A model generated the notes under the pieces. The model was given only the letters and a program-made list of their open reading frames with translations. It was not told the origin of the DNA and did no database searches. Below are positions 2,254-41,137 of a stretch of 41,314 nt of DNA, in pieces. The stretch is from a virus, in the IMG/VR virus record IMGVR_UViG_3300049450_000044, positions 1-41,314 of that record; one strand, given 5' to 3'. A program made the translations under genes and the position numbers. Each line of letters opens with the position of its first letter. The first letter of the stretch is position 1.

Positions 2254-2719
2254 CCAGCTCATCGTCCAGCGTTGGCTCATCCGGCTCGGGAAAATCACCA
2301 GCGCCAGGATCAGCGAGGACGACGCCGCGGATTTCATCGAGGAATTCTCCCCGCTTCTCGCCATGCGGTTCGGTGATGACGCGTTCACAAATGTCTCCCT
2401 CGAATTCGTCGCGGCGGAATGTAAGTACCTCCCCACATACGGCGAACTCGTCGCCCTACTCCGGGACTGGAAACGACAACTGCCAGCGCCATCCTATCCC
2501 GCCCTCAACGACAACGTGGCCGACATGGACGCCAAGAACCGACACTGGCTGAGCTACTACCAACGCCGCGAACGCGAGGGCTTCACACCCCTCCGCGAGA
2601 AGGATGGCAGGTTGTCACGGCCGGACATCACCGATTGGCGCGAACACACCCTCAGCCTGATCCGCCAACACGCCCCCGACGCCTGGGCCTACCTCCTTCG
2701 CGATCACCATGCCGCTTGA
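2246..2719 (+). CDS. Replication-partner protein, possible helicase loader position
   Basis: This 157-residue protein starts at ATG 2246 behind a good ribosome site (AGGAGG at 2235-2240). It is mostly alpha-helical in composition: an N-terminal helix IVQRWLIRLGKI, an acidic DDAADFIEEF segment, and a YLPTYGELVALLRDW motif that recurs in phage proteins found next to DUF1376 initiators. Its place immediately after the initiator matches lambda P, but I see no Walker motif and no direct proof of helicase loading. The end overlaps the next gene by 11 bases. Confidence 0.6.
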   Translation: MADQLIVQRWLIRLGKITSARISEDDAADFIEEFSPLLAMRFGDDAFTNVSLEFVAAECKYLPTYGELVALLRDWKRQLPAPSYPALNDNVADMDAKNRHWLSYYQRREREGFTPLREKDGRLSRPDITDWREHTLSLIRQHAPDAWAYLLRDHHAA

Positions 2720-3287
2720 CGCCAACCCACCACAGTGCGTAGCTACACAACCTGCCGCGCATCACCCGGCGTGCATCCGCGTCCGATGGGCCGTCCTCGC
2801 CACCTACCCAAAAGCCGAAGCCTGGGCCGAACAGAACCTCCGCCAACGCGGCTACACCCCCTTCCTCCCTCGCTACACCACCAGAGTCCGCGATCACTCA
2901 ATCCCATCCCTGGTCCGCGAAGCCTCCCGCCCGCTGTTCGCAGGTTACATCTTCTGCCAGCACAACACCGCCGATCCATGGCGACCAATCCGTTACTGCC
3001 CAGGCATCCGCGCCAACCTTATCGGCGGCAAAGGAGTCCAGTATGCCAACGCGGGCGCTGTGAGCGTGCTACAGGCCAGCGAGGCGCTTCGCCACAGACC
3101 AACCCCTCAGGAACCGTCCTGGCGCCCTGGTGATGCCTGTCAGCCCCGCGACGGGCCATTCGGCGGCCTGCCTGGAGTGGTCCTCAGCACCGAACGACAC
3201 AATGCAACCGTCGGCATCCTCTTCCTCGGACAACTCCGCGAAGTCGTCTACCCATTCGATGCCATCATCAGTAGGAACGACTTCTAG
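2709..3287 (+). CDS. NusG/RfaH-like transcription antiterminator
   Basis: This 192-residue protein combines an NGN-type domain (about residues 25-110: WAVLATYPKAEAWAEQNL, then RGYTPFLPR, then PLFAGYIFC) with a C-terminal KOW-like domain (about 135-185: GDACQPRDGPFGGLPGVV). Both are hallmarks of NusG paralogues such as RfaH and UpxY, which bind RNA polymerase and suppress pausing or termination. It closes the early rightward operon ahead of the late genes, the place taken by Q in lambda, so late-gene antitermination is the natural inference. Spacer 1 of the CRISPR array at 17986 resembles codons 36-46 of this gene. Confidence 0.85.
   Translation: MPLDANPPQCVATQPAAHHPACIRVRWAVLATYPKAEAWAEQNLRQRGYTPFLPRYTTRVRDHSIPSLVREASRPLFAGYIFCQHNTADPWRPIRYCPGIRANLIGGKGVQYANAGAVSVLQASEALRHRPTPQEPSWRPGDACQPRDGPFGGLPGVVLSTERHNATVGILFLGQLREVVYPFDAIISRNDF
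2815..2846 (+). other. Protospacer-like site for spacer 1 (RfaH-like gene)
   Basis: This stretch matches spacer 1 (18015-18046) at 22 of 32 positions. Fifteen of the first 16 match, and the single early mismatch is at position 6, which usually does not count in type I-E. It is immediately preceded by AAG (2812-2814), the classic type I-E PAM. Substitutions respect the reading frame: the spacer reads AETWADTNLQR against AEAWAEQNLRQR here. It marks the locus that the spacer would target in a relative. Confidence 0.6.
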
Positions 3288-3322: not shown

Positions 3323-3679
3323 TTGTTAACACTACAGCCGGCAAGATTAAATCCAGGCGGCCGCCCAAAAGGCAGGGCAAATGGCGTCAATTCTGACGTG
3401 CGCAGCATGATGCACCAAGCCCTGCATCGTGTTGGTGGCGTCAAGTATCTTGCACAGCAAGCCATTGATCATCCAGGCGCTTTTCTCACACTGCTTGCCA
3501 AGGTGATGCCAGCGCACATCGTCAGCGAAAGCAGCAACCATCTGCATCTGCATCTCGAGGCCGCAATGCAGATCTCAAAGCAGATGCAGTCCGAGCCCAA
3601 ACGCACGATAACGCTAGAGCCGCAGGCACAAGATGCACCACCAGCATCATTGCTCGATGCGCCGTTGCCCGAGGAATAG
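3323..3679 (+). CDS. Possible small terminase-like or DNA-binding protein
   Basis: The frame of 118 residues begins with TTG at 3323. The N terminus carries GGRPKGRANGVN, a basic motif common at the start of small phage DNA-binding and small-terminase-like proteins. It is followed by a helical segment and HPGAFLTLLAKVMPAH, a pattern seen in the same group. The large terminase gene is 7.4 kb away, and no other small terminase candidate was recognised. The start is uncertain because TTG is used and the ribosome site is weak. A packaging role is a suggestion only. Confidence 0.5.
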   Translation: MLTLQPARLNPGGRPKGRANGVNSDVRSMMHQALHRVGGVKYLAQQAIDHPGAFLTLLAKVMPAHIVSESSNHLHLHLEAAMQISKQMQSEPKRTITLEPQAQDAPPASLLDAPLPEE

Positions 3680-3693
3680 CGATCGTGATCAGC

Positions 3694-3724
3694 ATGCTCC
3701 GCTAACTTACAATAAGTGGAGCAT
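3694..3724 (+). terminator. Hairpin, possible end of early operon
   Basis: ATGCTCC at 3694-3700 pairs perfectly with GGAGCAT at 3718-3724, and an inner ACTTA pairs with TAAGT across a three-base loop, leaving a four-base bulge. It sits 15 bases after the last early gene. There is no T-run, so it may be a weak terminator, an antiterminator target or an mRNA-stabilising stem. Confidence 0.4.
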
Positions 3725-4032
3725 CCCAATGATATCAACGACTTAGCTGTTATGTGACAGCGTTGGGCTTCAGTGGGGCTTCATCCCGGCAAGCGACAGC
3801 CCGCGTGTGTTGCAGTGCAGCGTGTAGCTACACAGCCACCACAGAGTAGCGAACCAACACGACCCACATCGGCGCGGACCAGCCACACGCACGCAGCAGC
3901 ACCAACGCTCTAGCCGCATCGCACCACTGGCCACCAATCGCCATCACCACCAGGATCGACCCCCGTGCCATGGCCCCCCTTCGAGCGGCATCGACTGACA
4001 CCCACGCCCACCCTCACACCCCTCCGAAATTT

Positions 4033-4060
4033 TTGGCATGCTCGTAACTACGTATATACG
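4033..4060 (+). promoter_or_regulatory. Candidate sigma-70-type promoter
   Basis: TTGGCA at 4033-4038 is followed after 16 bases by TATACG at 4055-4060, about 30 bases before the ATG at 4092. The core GTATATACG also occurs just ahead of the mini-CRISPR array (17973-17981). It would drive the small membrane-protein genes. Confidence 0.4.
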
Positions 4061-4091
4061 TCGGCACATACACCATGGCAGGTGAACGGCG

Positions 4092-7153: not shown

Positions 7154-7612
7154 ATGCCAACATTTCGCGTGACCGGCGGGGCGCTGACGCTTGATAGCGT
7201 CGGTGGCAATTATCCGGACAACAGCCTGCCTGGTGATCAGCCTGGCATCGACAACAGCCTGCCCATTCCGCCGCCTCCGTTGGGTGTGTGGCCGCCTCCG
7301 GTGCCGGCGCACCCGATCGTTCCTGCGCCGCCTGGGACGCCGCCTGGCAGCATCTGGCCGCCTGTAGGGGGCTACCTGCCGCCCAAGCCTGACCAGGGGT
7401 TGCCGCCGGGGTCTGGGAGCGCGCCTGGGACGCCTACGCACCCGATTGCACCGCCGCCTGGTGGCCAGGTGCCTGGCACGCCGGAGCATCCGATTGCGGG
7501 CGGGACGTATTGGTGCCTGGTCTACATGCCGAACTACGGCTGGAGCTACCATGCGATTGATCCCAGCCTGCGCCCTGGCATGCCGCTGCCGCCGCACGCA
7601 CAGCCGAAATGA
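7154..7612 (+). CDS. Proline/glycine-rich protein, 152 aa
   Basis: The start at ATG 7154 was preferred over the longer frame because the upstream part lies in the hairpin and spacer region. Residues 1-30 look ordinary (FRVTGGALTLDSVGGNYPDN). Residues 35-120 are dominated by Pro and Gly with recurring P-x-HPI and PPG units (PAHPIVPAPPG, PTHPIAPPPG, PEHPIAGG). The last 35 residues form a compact aromatic end (YWCLVYMPNYGWSYHAIDP). Similar proteins occur in phages of unknown function; a virion-surface or linker role is possible. Confidence 0.6.
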   Translation: MPTFRVTGGALTLDSVGGNYPDNSLPGDQPGIDNSLPIPPPPLGVWPPPVPAHPIVPAPPGTPPGSIWPPVGGYLPPKPDQGLPPGSGSAPGTPTHPIAPPPGGQVPGTPEHPIAGGTYWCLVYMPNYGWSYHAIDPSLRPGMPLPPHAQPK

Positions 7613-7644
7613 CAACGAACAACAAGCCTACAGGGAAGCTTCAC

Positions 7645-8298
7645 ATGAAACACGCGCTGCGCATTACCACGATTGTGGCTGGGGCTTGGTTCTTCCACGC
7701 GCCGGCGCATGCCACGCAAATTATCGCGTTTGGGCAGGTCTCCGGCTCCAATACGCTGACGGCCACCGCCAACGGCGCCGGCACTGCAACGGCGCTCAGC
7801 ACCGATACGGCGATCAGCATCACGCAACTATTCGGGAACGCGCCCACGTCGGGCTTCCTCGACCTCAATGCATCCTCGATCGACGCGGCGGTGGGTGTCG
7901 GGCCGGCTTTGCTCCAGCACTACAGCGGGACATTCGCGATCACCTCGCTCGCCGGCGGTCTCGGCACCAACTTCCTTAGCGGGACGTTCTCGGATGCGGC
8001 GTTTGGATTGGCGACTGGTGAGCAGTTGAGCATCAACGTGGCCAACCCGCCTGATACCTTGTCCCTGACAAGCAGCGTGATCCCGGCGGCCGATCTGGTG
8101 GCGCCGTCCTCGTTCACCCTGTCGCTGTCCAACGTTCTCCCGGCGCTCAGCCTCGACAACGCCACGCTTGCCTCATTCACCGCGTCCTATAGCGGCGTGG
8201 CCAGCGCGACCACGGAGGCTGTGCCGGAGCCGGCGGGCCTGGCGCTGCTGGGCGTGGGGCTGCTGGGGTTGGGGTTGGTGCGGTCGCGGAGGGTGTGA
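7645..8298 (+). CDS. PEP-CTERM sorted secreted protein
   Basis: The ATG at 7645 is preceded by GGGAAG and opens a signal peptide (MKHALRITTIVAGAWFF, cleavage near AHA-TQ). The body (about residues 25-190) is low in charge and rich in Ser/Thr/Ala, as in exported extracellular-matrix proteins. The end is a textbook PEP-CTERM signal: VPEP, a hydrophobic helix GLALLGVGLLGLGLV, then RSRRV. Such tails are cut by exosortase in Gram-negative bacteria. In a phage this is unexpected cargo, probably taken from a host, that could alter the infected cell's surface. A longer start at 7609 is possible. Confidence 0.85.
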   Translation: MKHALRITTIVAGAWFFHAPAHATQIIAFGQVSGSNTLTATANGAGTATALSTDTAISITQLFGNAPTSGFLDLNASSIDAAVGVGPALLQHYSGTFAITSLAGGLGTNFLSGTFSDAAFGLATGEQLSINVANPPDTLSLTSSVIPAADLVAPSSFTLSLSNVLPALSLDNATLASFTASYSGVASATTEAVPEPAGLALLGVGLLGLGLVRSRRV

Positions 8299-10802: not shown

Positions 10803-11107
10803 ACGAAGGCGACGAACCAGAGAAGCTGCCGTTATCGGCCAGGCAGATGTCGCTCGATCTGCACCTGTTGGTGCGGGATGTGGAAGGCGGCGGCCCGCTT
10901 GATCTCAATGTCTATGTGCTGGACATCGTCGCTGACCGTGAGGCGCATGTTTGGCCGATCACGGTATGCATCCAACATTCTGGCGGCCCGCCCAAAGCCG
11001 AGAGTTGGGAGACCGCTTTTGACCTGACGCCGCTGGGCGCAGCGACATTGCGGGACTTTCTTGATTTTCTGGTCCGCACCAAACCATGGCTGCCGGAATT
11101 GCCATGA
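10799..11107 (+). CDS. Hypothetical protein before the terminase, 102 aa
   Basis: ATG at 10799 overlaps the preceding stop, and the end overlaps the terminase start by four bases. Features are SARQMSLDLHLLVRDVEGGG, a beta-rich middle (NVYVLDIVADREAHVWPITV) and a C-terminal helix LRDFLDFLVRT. Its position suggests a small terminase or packaging accessory, but no helix-turn-helix is evident and no family was recognised. Confidence 0.6.
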   Translation: MNEGDEPEKLPLSARQMSLDLHLLVRDVEGGGPLDLNVYVLDIVADREAHVWPITVCIQHSGGPPKAESWETAFDLTPLGAATLRDFLDFLVRTKPWLPELP

Positions 11108-12570
11108 GCGACACCACCGCCCCTAATTATGCAGAGACTATGCCACCAAGTTGGGCGGAAGCTATCGCCCGCGCGCCCAATCCGTATGAGGTATCACTCG
11201 CCAGATACGCCCGCGCGCCGATCGCATTTGTTCGGGAAGTGTTGTTGGCTGAACCTGACGACTGGCAGATGAAGGTGCTGCGGGCGCTGGCGAGGGGGCA
11301 TACGCGGATTGCGGTGCGCAGCTGCCACGGGCCTGGCAAGACCGCGCTGGCGGCGTGGGTGGCGGTGTGGTTCTCGAACACCAGGGCACCGTTCAAGCTG
11401 GCGATGACGGCACCATCCTCTCCCCAGTTGTTCGATGCCCTCTATCCCGAGGTGATCAAGTGGCTGGATCGGTTGCCGGGGGCGTGGCGTGAGTTGTGGC
11501 ATGTGACCAGCGACCACATCACGCTGAAGAGCAACCCGGAGTGTTTTATTACGGCGAGGACCAGCAGGCCCGAGACCCCTGAAGCCCTTGCCGGCCTGCA
11601 CTCGGACAACATCCTGCTGGTGGTGGATGAGGCGTCTGGTGTGCCTGAGCAGGTGTTCGAGGCGGCATCGGGGTCGATGAGCAGTGCGGGGGCGATCACG
11701 CTGCTGATCGGCAATCCGACGCGGTCATCCGGGTTCTTCTGGAAGGCGTTCATGTTGGAAAGGGATCGGTGGTTCACCATGAAGGTGGGCTACCAGGACA
11801 GCCCGCGGGTGACGCAGGATTTCGCTGATGAGATTGCCGGGCGGTATGGCGCCGACAGCAATGCGTATCGGGTGCGGGTGCTGGGGGAATTTCCGCTGGC
11901 TGATGCCGATACGCTGATCCCGGCCGAGTTGGTTGACGGCGCGATGGTAAGGGACACCCCATTAGACGGCTCTGCCGAGATCTGGGGCGTCGATGTGGCG
12001 CGGTTCGGAACTGATGCGTCGGTGCTGATCAAGCGGCGGGGCAACGTGGTGCCTGAGATGCCGCGCAGCTTCCACCAGCTGGATACCATGATGCTGGCGG
12101 GGGCGATCAAGGCGGAATGGGATGCCCAGATCACCAAGCCGGTGCTGATCTGTATCGATGTCATCGGGATCGGGGCGGGGGTCGTGGATCGGCTGAACGA
12201 GCAGGGGCTGCCGATCCTCGGGGTCAACGTCTCGGAATCGCCCTCCACCACCGGGCGCTATGCGCGGCTGCGCGATGAGCTGTGGGTGCGGTGCAAGGAG
12301 TGGTTGTCGTCGCGTGCGGTTCGGCTGCCGCGCCATGAGCGGCTGAGGGACGACCTGGTGGCGCCGCGCTATGCGTTCCTGAGCGATGGCCGGCTGAAGG
12401 TCGAGGACAAGAACAGCATGCGGGCCCGGGGATTGCCGAGTTGCGACTATGCCGATGCGCTCAACCTGACGTTCTGTCAGCAGGGGCTGGGGGTGGGCTC
12501 GGGGATGAGCGGCGGGATCTACGACAAGGTGGGCATGCGGATGGAACTGGGTGCCGAGGTGGAGGTATGA
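11104..12570 (+). CDS. terL: Terminase large subunit
   Basis: This 488-residue packaging motor has an ATPase with Walker A SCHGPGKT (about residue 80) and Walker B ILLVVDEASG (about residue 178), then a C-terminal RNase H-like nuclease with Asp residues in WGVDVARFGTDAS and ICIDVIGIGAG. The enzyme translocates DNA into the prohead and cuts it at headful or site ends. The ATG at 11104 overlaps the preceding stop; the longer start at 11086 would overlap more. It leads the structural operon. Confidence 0.93.
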   Translation: MSDTTAPNYAETMPPSWAEAIARAPNPYEVSLARYARAPIAFVREVLLAEPDDWQMKVLRALARGHTRIAVRSCHGPGKTALAAWVAVWFSNTRAPFKLAMTAPSSPQLFDALYPEVIKWLDRLPGAWRELWHVTSDHITLKSNPECFITARTSRPETPEALAGLHSDNILLVVDEASGVPEQVFEAASGSMSSAGAITLLIGNPTRSSGFFWKAFMLERDRWFTMKVGYQDSPRVTQDFADEIAGRYGADSNAYRVRVLGEFPLADADTLIPAELVDGAMVRDTPLDGSAEIWGVDVARFGTDASVLIKRRGNVVPEMPRSFHQLDTMMLAGAIKAEWDAQITKPVLICIDVIGIGAGVVDRLNEQGLPILGVNVSESPSTTGRYARLRDELWVRCKEWLSSRAVRLPRHERLRDDLVAPRYAFLSDGRLKVEDKNSMRARGLPSCDYADALNLTFCQQGLGVGSGMSGGIYDKVGMRMELGAEVEV

Positions 12571-17985: not shown

Positions 17986-18136
17986 GTGTTCCCCGCAGGC
18001 GCGGGGATGACCCGCCGAAACCTGGGCCGACACCAACCTGCAACGCGTGTTCCCCGCAGGCGCGGGGATGACCCGGAGTAGACCATGGCCGTTCCCGCAC
18101 AGGGAGCGTGTTCCCTGCGTGTGCGGGGATGAAACC
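17986..18136 (+). CRISPR. Phage-borne mini-CRISPR array, type I-E, three repeats and two spacers
   Basis: Repeats start at 17986, 18047 and 18108, a constant 61-nt period, with 29-nt repeats and 32-nt spacers as in type I-E. The first two repeats are identical (GTGTTCCCCGCAGGC, then GCGGGGATGACCCG), with a CCCCGC/GCGGGG stem and an 8-nt tag ATGACCCG. The third is degenerate (GTGTTCCCTGCGTGTGCGGG, then GATGAAACC), as usual for the leader-distal end. Spacer 1 is 18015-18046 and spacer 2 is 18076-18107. Spacer 2 resembles the start of this phage's capsid gene and spacer 1 its RfaH-like gene. No cas genes are present, so host Cascade would be needed. Confidence 0.93.
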
Positions 18137-18371
18137 CGTTATTGACGGCATGGCTCTACTGACAACATACTGACATTCGTCGCCCGAAGGAGTGCTTGCA
18201 CCAACCGGCTGGGCGGGCCGTGTAGTCGCGAGGATGACCAAGTTGGTCGCCGGCACGCACCGCAGTCGCAAGACCAAGCGGTAAACGCCCGAGCAGACCT
18301 CCAGTCGCTCCATTGCGAACCAGCAATTTGGTTCAATCAGGCATGCAGCGTAGCTACGCGCGTGCCATGCA
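18137..18371. other. Noncoding stretch between the mini-array and the capsid gene
   Basis: No convincing gene or tRNA is seen. It holds the inverted repeat GACCAAGTTGGTC (18236-18248), the stem GAACCA/TGGTTC (18318-18335) and the palindrome GCGTAGCTACGC (18348-18359). Such a gap is unusual in this packed operon. It could be the original intergenic region with a capsid promoter, or DNA that came with the array. Confidence 0.6.
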
Positions 18372-36110: not shown

Positions 36111-36315
36111 GCGTTCGTGGGAGCCAAATAACGACCAGCACCGCGAATAGCACAGTGAAGACGTTGTCGTGGCCAACAGCGGCTGCGTTCACGAGCAGTA
36201 GAACGACAGCGCCAATGGTGCAGGCCATGCACACATACCAGCAGCCGTTGTACCATCGGGCGATTACGATAGCGGCGATGAAGAGCGTTGCGATCCCGGC
36301 AAGCAGTTCCATCAC
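36076..36315 (-). CDS. Small membrane protein, three helices, 79 aa
   Basis: Three hydrophobic segments are visible: LLAGIATLFIAAIVIARWY, VCMACTIGAVVLLLVNAAAV and VFTVLFAVLVVIWLP, followed by a basic tail. The size and number of helices fit a class I holin, but it is the last gene of the leftward early operon and no endolysin is adjacent. It may instead be a superinfection or membrane-modifying protein. Start 36312 is also possible. Confidence 0.55.
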   Translation of the reverse strand: MMELLAGIATLFIAAIVIARWYNGCWYVCMACTIGAVVLLLVNAAAVGHDNVFTVLFAVLVVIWLPRTLRRHLARVAHR

Positions 36316-37520: not shown

Positions 37521-38400
37521 TCGCCATTTTCTCCTCCCCAGCGATCACGACCTCGTCCAGGTCGTCACCGGGCTCGGCTTCCGGTTCCTCAGGGAACCTG
37601 GCGAAAGCATCGTTGAGCGCTTTTGTGACCCATACCGCTAACTCAGGTATGCCGGCTGCCTGCGCTGCATGGACGGATTTCAGGCTGCCGACCGCCACCA
37701 CATCGGCCCGCGATTTCGCCAGCGCCAGCTTGGCCAGCAGGTTCCGCTTCCACCTCTCCTCATCCGTCTCGGCCGGCTCGGCGTCATACACCTCGGGATC
37801 CGCCCTGCGGGGCGCGCGCGGTGTGGCGGCGGCGGCTGAGCGCAGGGGGATCGCGTCGTTGATAGCGTCCCTCGCGGTGCGGATCGGGGCAACTGGCACA
37901 TCCTCCTCGGCATCGAACACCCGCGCACCGGGCATCGTGTCCAACTCGCTCTCGTCAGTCTGGCCAAGCCCGCAGATCGAGAGCGTCACGCGCCGTTTCG
38001 CTTTCGTGATTGCTTTCATCAGCGCATTGGCGCGGCTATCGCCCGAAGCAGGCAGGACGACTGCGCCGATATCCTCGTCTTCGCGCCCATCCTTGGTTCT
38101 TGCCCGCACCGTGACCGAGAACACCCCGGCATCTATCGACTTATCGACAACGTGCAACGTGATGTTGCGCGATGAGCGAAGCTGGTCGGTGCCGTCGCGC
38201 GTGAAGTAAATCTGGATCTGACCATTCAGCGACAGGAACCTGATAGGCCGCGTCAATGGATTGAGGCCGAGCGATTTGCAGGTTGCGACCAGATATTCGA
38301 CGCGCTGCTGCGTGGTCAGCTTCGACAGGTCGCCGGTGCCGAGCACATGCTCCAACGCCTGCGCGGATACCGGCTCGGTGGTCGTTAGTGCTTGGCTCAT
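37513..38400 (-). CDS. Probable single-strand annealing protein (RecT-like)
   Basis: This 295-residue protein shows the pattern of a phage annealing-protein family. It begins with QQRVEYLVATCKSLGLNPLT, continues through RFLSLNGQIQIYFTRDGTDQ, then RTKDGREDEDIGAVVLPASG and NALMKAITKAKRRVTLSICG, and ends with the acidic GLGQTDESELDTMPGA. The last 120 residues are a variable, charged tail. Such proteins anneal single strands in phage recombination and replication. It lies next to a Gp157-like gene, as in many phages. Confidence 0.65.
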   Translation of the reverse strand: MSQALTTTEPVSAQALEHVLGTGDLSKLTTQQRVEYLVATCKSLGLNPLTRPIRFLSLNGQIQIYFTRDGTDQLRSSRNITLHVVDKSIDAGVFSVTVRARTKDGREDEDIGAVVLPASGDSRANALMKAITKAKRRVTLSICGLGQTDESELDTMPGARVFDAEEDVPVAPIRTARDAINDAIPLRSAAAATPRAPRRADPEVYDAEPAETDEERWKRNLLAKLALAKSRADVVAVGSLKSVHAAQAAGIPELAVWVTKALNDAFARFPEEPEAEPGDDLDEVVIAGEEKMASG

Positions 38401-40171: not shown

Positions 40172-40474
40172 GTGCCGATACGTGCCGCCGCCGTCCATAA
40201 CCAAATCCTCACGTCACTAATTGACGGAGGTAAGTTTAGCGACCCTGAACAGGTTACGCAAGCGGAAATGTGGAATGCAGCCAAAATCAGGTTAGACCGG
40301 CTAAACGAGGCTAGGAATGCTGCTTCTTCCTTGTTCGTCGAGGCGCTGGGCTATCCGGTGGTGGGTCTGGGGGAGGATCAGCGAGTAACCTTGCGGTATG
40401 CTCGATCATCAGCACAAGTCCTGCCTGCTTGTCTGGCGGCACTGCTCGAATTATCTGAGCTATTGCCTCCGTGA
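40172..40474 (+). CDS. Hypothetical protein convergent with the repressor, 100 aa
   Basis: GTG at 40172 is preceded by a perfect AAAGGAGG, which argues for a real gene. The N-terminal 60 residues look protein-like (AVHNQILTSLIDGGKFSDPE, then WNAAKIRLDRLNEARNAASS). The last 55 residues lie antisense to the repressor gene. The 164-base tail-to-tail overlap is unusual. The function is unknown; a role in the genetic switch is possible from position. Confidence 0.55.
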   Translation: MPIRAAAVHNQILTSLIDGGKFSDPEQVTQAEMWNAAKIRLDRLNEARNAASSLFVEALGYPVVGLGEDQRVTLRYARSSAQVLPACLAALLELSELLPP

Positions 40475-40682
40475 TTTCGTCCACCGGCATGCCGGGGATC
40501 AGGTCGGTTATCCGCATATCCAGCAGGACGGCGAGCTGTGCCCGCCGCGTGATCGATGGCTTGGTCGTGCCGCTTTCCCACTGATTAACCGCGCTTCGCC
40601 CGACGCCCAGCGCCCTGGCCACATCCTGTTGGGATAGCCCTGCTTTCGTCCTGGCTGCCGCGATTCGTTCGCCGATGGTCAT
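40311..40682 (-). CDS. CI-type repressor, HTH (XRE family)
   Basis: The start at 40682 is chosen because residues 1-60 form a complete XRE helix-turn-helix (GERIAAARTKAGLSQQDVAR, then ALGVGRSAVNQWESGTTKPS). The longer frame to 41069 would run through the divergent gene. The rest is short (123 residues in all), with ITEAIAQIIRAVPPDKQAGL and a Pro/Arg tail, so it lacks a LexA-like cleavage domain. It probably represses the divergent promoters flanking the operator at 40719. Confidence 0.8.
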   Translation of the reverse strand: MTIGERIAAARTKAGLSQQDVARALGVGRSAVNQWESGTTKPSITRRAQLAVLLDMRITDLIPGMPVDEITEAIAQIIRAVPPDKQAGLVLMIEHTARLLADPPPDPPPDSPAPRRTRKKQHS

Positions 40683-40718
40683 ACCGTTGGTATGCCATAA
40701 CCGTTGTTCAGTTTCCCT

Positions 40719-40733
40719 GCACAAATATTGTGC
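40719..40733. promoter_or_regulatory. Perfect 15-bp operator-like palindrome
   Basis: GCACAAATATTGTGC is a perfect inverted repeat (GCACAA, three-base centre, TTGTGC) midway between the divergent repressor and Cro-like genes. Direct repeats ACCGTTG at 40683 and 40700 lie nearby. It is the natural binding site for one or both regulators. Confidence 0.6.
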
Positions 40734-40808
40734 GGTTTCGAACATTGATGGCTTGCCAATCGGTTTAGGGTCGCTTAACGTGGTCGGATGCCCGCTGGCC
40801 TCACCGGA

Positions 40809-41024
40809 ATGGACCTGCTGCGCTCGCCCGCTTGCCGTGGTTTCCGGGCTTTGATCGCTCGGGAACTCGGCATCGAGCGGGGGGCTGTCTCGCAGTGGCG
40901 ACAGATACCCGCTGAGCGGGTTCCGGCCATCAGCCGCATTACCGGCATCCCACGTCATCTGCTGCGGCCCGACCTTTGGGAGCCGCATGATTGTGCCTGC
41001 CGTGAGCCAGCGGAGGCTGCCTGA
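40809..41024 (+). CDS. Cro/YdaS-like transcription regulator
   Basis: ATG 40809 is preferred because homologous proteins begin at this MDLL; ATG 40788 is an alternative. The 71-residue product has the YdaS-type helix-turn-helix: FRALIARELGIERGAVSQWR, then QIPAERVPAISRITGIPRHL and LRPDLW. It is divergent from the repressor and heads the rightward early operon, as Cro does in lambda. It probably represses CI synthesis or early promoters. Confidence 0.8.
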   Translation: MDLLRSPACRGFRALIARELGIERGAVSQWRQIPAERVPAISRITGIPRHLLRPDLWEPHDCACREPAEAA

Positions 41025-41137
41025 ACGCCTGACGCCTGCACCAAGGGAGGGAACCGTATGCACACACACAACAGCCTGCTCACACGCTTACCCTCGCTCG
41101 GCTCGTTCTGGCAGCTTGGCGTAGTGGCGTAACGGTC

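Follow-up and report, generated by a model that had tools for sequence, protein, structure and literature searches.

The control of late genes by Q is a textbook case, and it is built on proteins of other folds than that of NusG. Related lambdoid phages carry different Q alleles, and alleles of N, Q or the repressor are swapped among lambdoid phages. NusG proteins stimulate pausing or Rho-dependent termination in some bacteria. According to PMC11150451, both Q and AlpA load at an element located in the late promoter. On the side of RfaH there is a precedent in RfaH-like proteins whose C-terminal domain is fixed in the beta form. As portrayed in PMC13015549, they lack the contacts to the ops element, are ops-independent and always active, and are encoded beside their presumed targets. 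We analysed a phage gene that combines features of both kinds of system. There is good support for the view that its product is RfaH-like and that the gene occupies the place of Q.

Genome organisation and position of the gene

The window, by which we mean the whole stretch of DNA that was analysed, is a viral record of 41,314 bases. Its ends are identical over 110 bases, and for this reason it probably represents a closed phage genome. The phage is temperate. An ORF with a CI-like helix-turn-helix (Pfam HTH_3, 4.3e-13) was located at 40311-41069 on the minus strand, and a Cro-like gene at 40788-41024 on the plus strand matched the Pfam models YdaS (5.4e-11) and P22_Cro (4e-6, under the cut-off of the latter). 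Lying on the strand opposite to the CI-like ORF, the Cro-like gene is the probable start of the early operon. This rightward operon comprises a resolvase-like gene, replication genes and nusG. Downstream of nusG follow a gene for a protein of 118 amino acids (g118, PHROG 11043; 3323-3679, plus strand) and a stretch of 412 bases that is not translated. The genes for a DNA methyltransferase, terminase, portal and capsid lie in the long block after it, most of which is rightward.

Position 3323 may be the start of the late region, since a PHROG 11043 gene directly precedes the terminase in Bradyrhizobium phage ppBjS10J-1. The large terminase subunit of the late operon (11086-12570, plus strand; PHROG 2, 1.5e-40) starts 7.8 kb further on, with small genes, the methyltransferase and endonuclease genes in between. 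In 14 of the 15 related records (those that are not closed were rotated as if circular) nusG is followed in turn by g118, the C-rich leader motif, the terminase and the portal, and the 15th ends before the terminase. A preliminary description of this DNA had put the gene in the position of lambda Q, and the conserved gene order and the recurrence of this position in other phage groups bear this out. It had also let nusG end the early operon just before the late region. This stands in so far as nusG is the last or last-but-one gene of the operon and lies at the early/late junction, but g118 intervenes before the 412-base stretch, and the terminase is reached only at 11086. The product of another gene of the window (7609-8298) carries a PEP-CTERM sorting signal (Pfam 1.1e-4, above the cut-off).

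The NusG-like protein

The ORF at 2709-3287 (plus strand) starts with ATG, encodes 192 amino acids and overlaps at its 5' end with the upstream ORF, the stop codon of which lies at 2719. Residues 26-107 matched the Pfam family NusG (PF02357) with 36.9 bits against a cut-off of 22.2 (E 5.2e-9), and residues 25-186 matched PHROG 6386, a family named 'transcription antiterminator' (E 3.3e-10). A gene of this kind is encoded in 16 related viral loci, where the surrounding gene order is kept. The NusG N-terminal domain (amino acids 27-126; 2787-3086, plus strand), which is swapped among sister phages, is followed by a conserved KOW-type C-terminal domain (amino acids 138-192; 3120-3284, plus strand), for which the Pfam KOW model reported no match in the window protein at E 1.

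AlphaFold2 predicted a NusG-type N-terminal domain and a KOW beta-barrel for the window protein (mean pLDDT 74.8, pTM 0.49) and likewise for a member of a very different class (mean pLDDT 73.7, pTM 0.50). With this modest confidence (pTM about 0.5) the fold of each domain is usable and the mutual orientation of the domains is not. In a search of the PDB the top match of both models was RfaH in a transcription complex (8pen), with Z 14.6 and an rmsd of 1.7 over 100 residues for the window protein and Z 12.6 and an rmsd of 1.8 over 98 for the other. The model of the KOW domain superimposed on the C-terminal domain of E. coli NusG (2jvv) with Z 9.3 and an rmsd of 1.4 over 55 residues. An NGN domain, a KOW C-terminal domain and a hydrophobic patch for the beta-prime clamp helices, all features of the NusG/Spt5 family, are present. 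The gene had been described before as a two-domain NusG paralogue, and the Pfam and PHROG 6386 matches and the models with RfaH as best structural match confirm this. Among the NCBIfam models, RfaH was the best for all four family proteins scanned, and none reached its cut-off of 144.5 bits: the window protein scored 30.5 bits and the three others 54.7-74.8. The window protein also stayed below the cut-offs of LoaP (14.4 of 125 bits) and UpxY (23.9 of 100 bits).

Comparison with functional residues of RfaH

The functional residues of RfaH, as given in PMC5995543 and PMC2871177, were mapped by hand onto 13 distinct proteins of the family. The equivalents of W4, P49, L50, Y54 and F56, five of the seven positions of the clamp-helix patch, were invariant in all 13; Y54 corresponds to Y80 of the window protein. 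At the remaining two positions, the equivalent of F51 was F or W and that of Y8 was variable. The polymerase-binding face, on the presence of which the earlier interpretation had hinged, is therefore there. In all 13 proteins the ops-reading residues were replaced (K10 by Y, H or G, H20 always by N and R73 by P, L or F), and so was the autoinhibition residue E48 (by R, A or V). The mean entropy amounted to 0.41 for the clamp-helix patch, 1.29 for the equivalents of the ops contacts and 1.21 for the entire N-terminal domain, and in view of the last value the ops-contact positions are no more variable than the rest.

An ops-like element had been supposed to lie in 3680-4091. Allowing up to 2 mismatches, none was found there, and the 10 matches in the whole window are at chance level (8.1 expected). 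With the equivalents of K10, H20 and R73 all replaced, RfaH-type reading of DNA bases is not supported either, and the sequences lend no support to the idea that this RfaH-like protein recognises an ops element. Because the ops-reading residues and E48 are replaced, ops occurs at chance frequency and the clamp-helix patch is kept, we place the protein among the specialised NusG paralogues of RfaH type and do not regard it as an RfaH orthologue. The residue pattern fits the always-active, ops-independent RfaH-like proteins reported in PMC13015549. The C-terminal domain was modelled as a beta fold in both proteins; models of this sort cannot settle whether it switches to an alpha-hairpin as in RfaH.

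The same position in other phages

A tblastn search with the window protein gave no match among annotated phages. Other phages were reached via a relative (L011), whose identity to the Labrenzia, Bradyrhizobium and Microcystis phage proteins is about 25-33% where BLAST aligns them. The early operon of Labrenzia phage vB_LagS-V1 ends with the gene for an unnamed NusG-like protein (Pfam 1.5e-9), which is followed by an HNH gene and the terminase. The NusG-like gene of Bradyrhizobium phage ppBjS10J-1 (Pfam 3.2e-12) precedes a gene for 64 amino acids, a gap of 0.5 kb, the PHROG 11043 gene and the terminase, and relatives of its product (76-90% identical) are encoded on four viral contigs, adjoining terminases of two PHROG families. 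The annotated NusG of Microcystis phage vB_MweS-yong2, barely above the Pfam cut-off, is the last early gene product and its gene adjoins that of the small terminase. As it was found, besides the phages of the present group, in the Labrenzia, Bradyrhizobium and Microcystis phages and on the four viral contigs, the seat of a NusG-like gene at the early/late junction is real and repeated, in at least four distinct phage groups. Matches from Salmonella, Listeria, Staphylococcus, Enterococcus, Synechococcus and uncultured phages and from an unannotated faecal record were left out of this survey. Sinorhizobium phage phiM5 has a related terminase and gave no NusG match, and the Labrenzia protein as query retrieved no relatives from the viral contigs.

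The 'nusG' of Microcystis phage MaAM05 was dropped, since it lies within a bacterial secE-nusG-rplK-rplA operon (MW495066.1, 38134-38865). Because of this operon the record is probably contaminated or misassigned. Some of the annotated phages nearest to this one, several in number, have Alphaproteobacteria as hosts, which is only a hint at its own host; among the genome contigs, protein alignment confirmed no relatives of the protein. Among the open-licence PMC papers surveyed we found no mention of phage-encoded NusG/RfaH as such, which is no proof that it is unpublished.

A CRISPR mini-array

The phage carries a mini-CRISPR array at 17986-18136 with 29-base repeats, the third of them degenerate, and two 32-base spacers. 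No cas family appeared among the PHROG matches of 30 ORFs in the window, and the exact repeat had no match in the genome contigs. Spacer 1 (18015-18046, plus strand) matched nusG of two sister phages (L006 and L007) in 31 of 32 bases, with AAG before the target. A related nusG had been noted as its target from the outset, and this holds; targeting does not show, however, that the gene is essential, as had been suggested. Spacer 2 matched the start of the capsid gene of two sister phages, G003 (L005) and G010 (L012), in all 32 bases, with ATG before the target; in the window's own copy of this target, 4 of the first 8 bases are mismatched. Between its scaffold and capsid genes, L005 (G003) carries an array built on the same repeat (37737-37887), and the first spacer of that array is a perfect match to the window at 36202 (minus strand). 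By these reciprocal matches the phage of the window and the L005 phage target each other. In archaea, sister viruses are known to target each other (PMC6858448).

The late leader and a proposed mechanism

The 412 untranslated bases ahead of the late genes (3680-4091, plus strand) were partly conserved in alignments. They contain a C-rich, G-poor, rut-like tract (3996-4025, plus strand), which most relatives share and which lies inside the 120-nt segment (from 3906) with the top plus-strand value of C minus G. At this segment length the leader was the only plus-strand peak of that height in the window, and with 60-nt segments it was among the top four plus-strand peaks in 12 of 13 genomes. One genome (G001) had 14 plus-strand peaks as high as that of the leader, and the nusG gene is likewise C-rich. 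Weak RNA folding of the tract (lowest 10% of segments) was limited to 5 of 9 genomes, in part because a G-run hairpin sits just 5' of it in others. In its sequence the tract resembles a Rho-loading site, a rut-like tract being a weak signature. Relatives show one of two forms at 3960-3980, a G-run/C-run form with a hairpin or a C-run/C-run form without one, and the window has the second.

Just after the C-rich tract, a block of the form AAATTTTTGG-N15-GTATATAC (4027-4059, plus strand) is kept in most relatives. With up to 2 mismatches it occurred once in the window and never in 100 shuffles. The block may be a late promoter or an operator; promoter-like as it is, it could provide the late genes with a separate promoter. 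What the relatives have kept of the leader has the look of a C-rich tract with a promoter-like block and not that of a pause hairpin. Intrinsic terminator-like sites were at chance level and so give no independent sign of terminators that need to be overcome, and neither the nusG start nor the leader had a match in Rfam.

We consider it somewhat probable that this phage-borne NusG paralogue of RfaH type is a late-gene antiterminator which does the job of Q with a NusG fold and acts in cis against Rho. The proposal builds on the modelled fold, the clamp-helix patch, the position of the gene, the conservation of the C-rich leader and the absence of the ops-reading and autoinhibition residues; from these we infer the binding to polymerase, Rho as the obstacle, the action in cis and the effect on the late genes. 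The protein would be made from the end of the early operon, and its N-terminal domain would bind the clamp helices of the host RNA polymerase, replacing host NusG, mostly on a polymerase that has just transcribed nusG itself. The same polymerase would next reach the untranslated leader, where Rho would be loaded at the C-rich, G-poor tract. Carrying the phage protein instead of host NusG, the polymerase would be Rho-resistant and would continue into the late operon of approximately 32 kb. Action in cis leaves the extreme variability of the N-terminal domain unexplained.

Exchange of the N-terminal domain

Between the six N-terminal classes, identity was 45% in the N-terminal and 82% in the C-terminal domain (68 pairs of 13 distinct proteins); capsid and terminase are about 93% identical among the sister phages. 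Mean amino acid distances in nine genomes were 0.519 for the N-terminal domain, 0.183 for KOW, 0.066 for the terminase and 0.061 for the major capsid protein. The N-terminal distances were uncorrelated with those of KOW (r 0.12, p 0.24), nor did they correlate with those of the terminase, portal, capsid or g118. No such swapping is seen in the Bradyrhizobium group, where this domain is conserved, so the exchange is a feature of the present phage group.

One reading that takes up this exchange is possible, if on the unlikely side: antitermination with an exchangeable specificity, in which the C-terminal domain, a frozen 5' cassette and the leader would be kept, the N-terminal domain, which faces polymerase and DNA, would be swapped as an allele in the manner of the lambdoid N, Q or repressor alleles, and the frozen first 14 codons would be a cis-acting loading or control element. 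Each class would then have either a signal of its own to recognise or its own host or rival factor to evade. A class-specific DNA element was sought and rejected. No stretch of the leader tracked the N-terminal class (the highest value was 0.26, compared with 0.32 at 95% of permutations), and with nusG masked, genomes of the same class shared no excess of private 11-mers (822, 1253 and 736 in the three same-class pairs versus 439-2271 in 33 others).

The gene start and alternatives to action in cis

The 5' leader of the gene (codons 1-23; 2709-2777, plus strand) had low model confidence, and its product is probably disordered according to the prediction. Codons 1-14 are nearly invariant even at synonymous positions. 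Where two classes have the same residue, the codon is also shared in 95% of comparisons within codons 1-14, compared with 63% for the N-terminal domain and 76% for KOW, and the 60 nucleotides ahead of the ATG are random among relatives (identity 0.32). A scan of viral contigs for the frozen start found 16 stretches, 15 on known nusG contigs and one new (L052), which is another nusG; the pattern missed L017, where one base is changed. The frozen start may be a boundary by which recombination is guided, or it may be an element that acts in cis.

Codons 11-13 (2739-2746, plus strand) contain the palindrome GTAGCTAC, which all 15 of 15 related records have at this position. The longer sequence CAGTGCGTAGCTAC at codons 9-13 is invariant and has a near copy with 2 mismatches in the late leader (3818-3831). 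The palindrome GTANNTAC occurs 8 times in the window (at 2421, 2739, 3824, 4044, 4052, 17973, 18350 and 23672) versus 1.6 expected, and 4-18 times per genome in nine genomes versus 0.9-1.6 expected. Many of the copies are in non-coding DNA close to gene starts, and GTANNTAC is possibly an operator. A hairpin at 18340-18366, immediately before the capsid gene, had a z of -1.83 against shuffles, and its GTAGCTAC core is at the same place in two other genomes (G002 and G012).

If the protein, like RfaH, LoaP or Q, were loaded sequence-specifically at an element in DNA or RNA, the best candidate would be CAGTGCGTAGCTAC with its near copy. Such loading could account for synonymous positions that are frozen downstream of random DNA, for the invariable place of GTAGCTAC and for the excess of GTANNTAC. 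We think it unlikely, however, as the element is identical in all N-terminal classes though the ops-reading positions differ between them. Moreover, the leader copy of GTAGCTAC is missing from several relatives, the N-terminal class is not mirrored anywhere in the leader, and RNA hairpins at 2709-2790 and 3800-3900 were no better than those of shuffles.

Slightly less likely still in our view is a general anti-NusG factor acting in trans, which would take over the host polymerase and shield all phage transcription from silencing by NusG and Rho with no preference for a site or operon. Such a factor would suit a protein that keeps the clamp-helix patch, lacks the RfaH-type DNA contacts and E48 and has a beta C-terminal domain in both models, but it would have no need of the early/late junction, where the gene nevertheless sits in four distinct phage groups. 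That the protein is instead a pausing or termination-promoting factor, a coupler of transcription and translation for late mRNA or a mere passenger is very improbable: KOW as the most conserved structured part would fit a contact to the ribosome or Rho, yet the position just before the packaging genes recurs, and the PHROG families of such proteins are named antiterminators (an annotation, not a test).

Comparison with known systems

The protein shares with E. coli RfaH and other specialised NusG paralogues the N-terminal fold, the clamp-helix residues and the best NCBIfam model. It differs from RfaH in a score far under the cut-off, in the replacement of K10, H20, R73 and E48, in the lack of ops and in being phage-borne beside its presumed target. 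The monomorphic beta-RfaH homologues, as PMC13015549 portrays them, are alike in the modelled beta C-terminal domain, the missing ops-contact residues and the location next to a presumed target. They are found near pathogenicity loci, whereas here we have a phage gene at the early/late junction with swapped N-terminal domains. Should late control by this protein hold true, it would offer a simple natural system for asking what restricts a specialised NusG paralogue to its target when there is no ops, and the swapped N-terminal domains would be ready natural chimeras for asking which face sets specificity.

The PHROG 6386 proteins of Labrenzia phage vB_LagS-V1 and Bradyrhizobium phage ppBjS10J-1 and the NusG of Microcystis phage vB_MweS-yong2 occupy the same early/late junction. 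A NusG-fold protein in the seat of Q in at least four phage groups suggests that phages have made a universal elongation factor into a late switch. With lambda Q and its functional analogues (Q21, AlpA and GafZ) the protein has in common the genome position, the presumed role and the occurrence of differing alleles in related phages. Unlike lambda Q, it has a NusG fold in the model (Z 14.6 in the comparison with RfaH/NusG structures). Q and AlpA have their loading element in the late promoter; here the conserved block at 4027-4059 is present, and no stretch of the leader tracks the N-terminal class.
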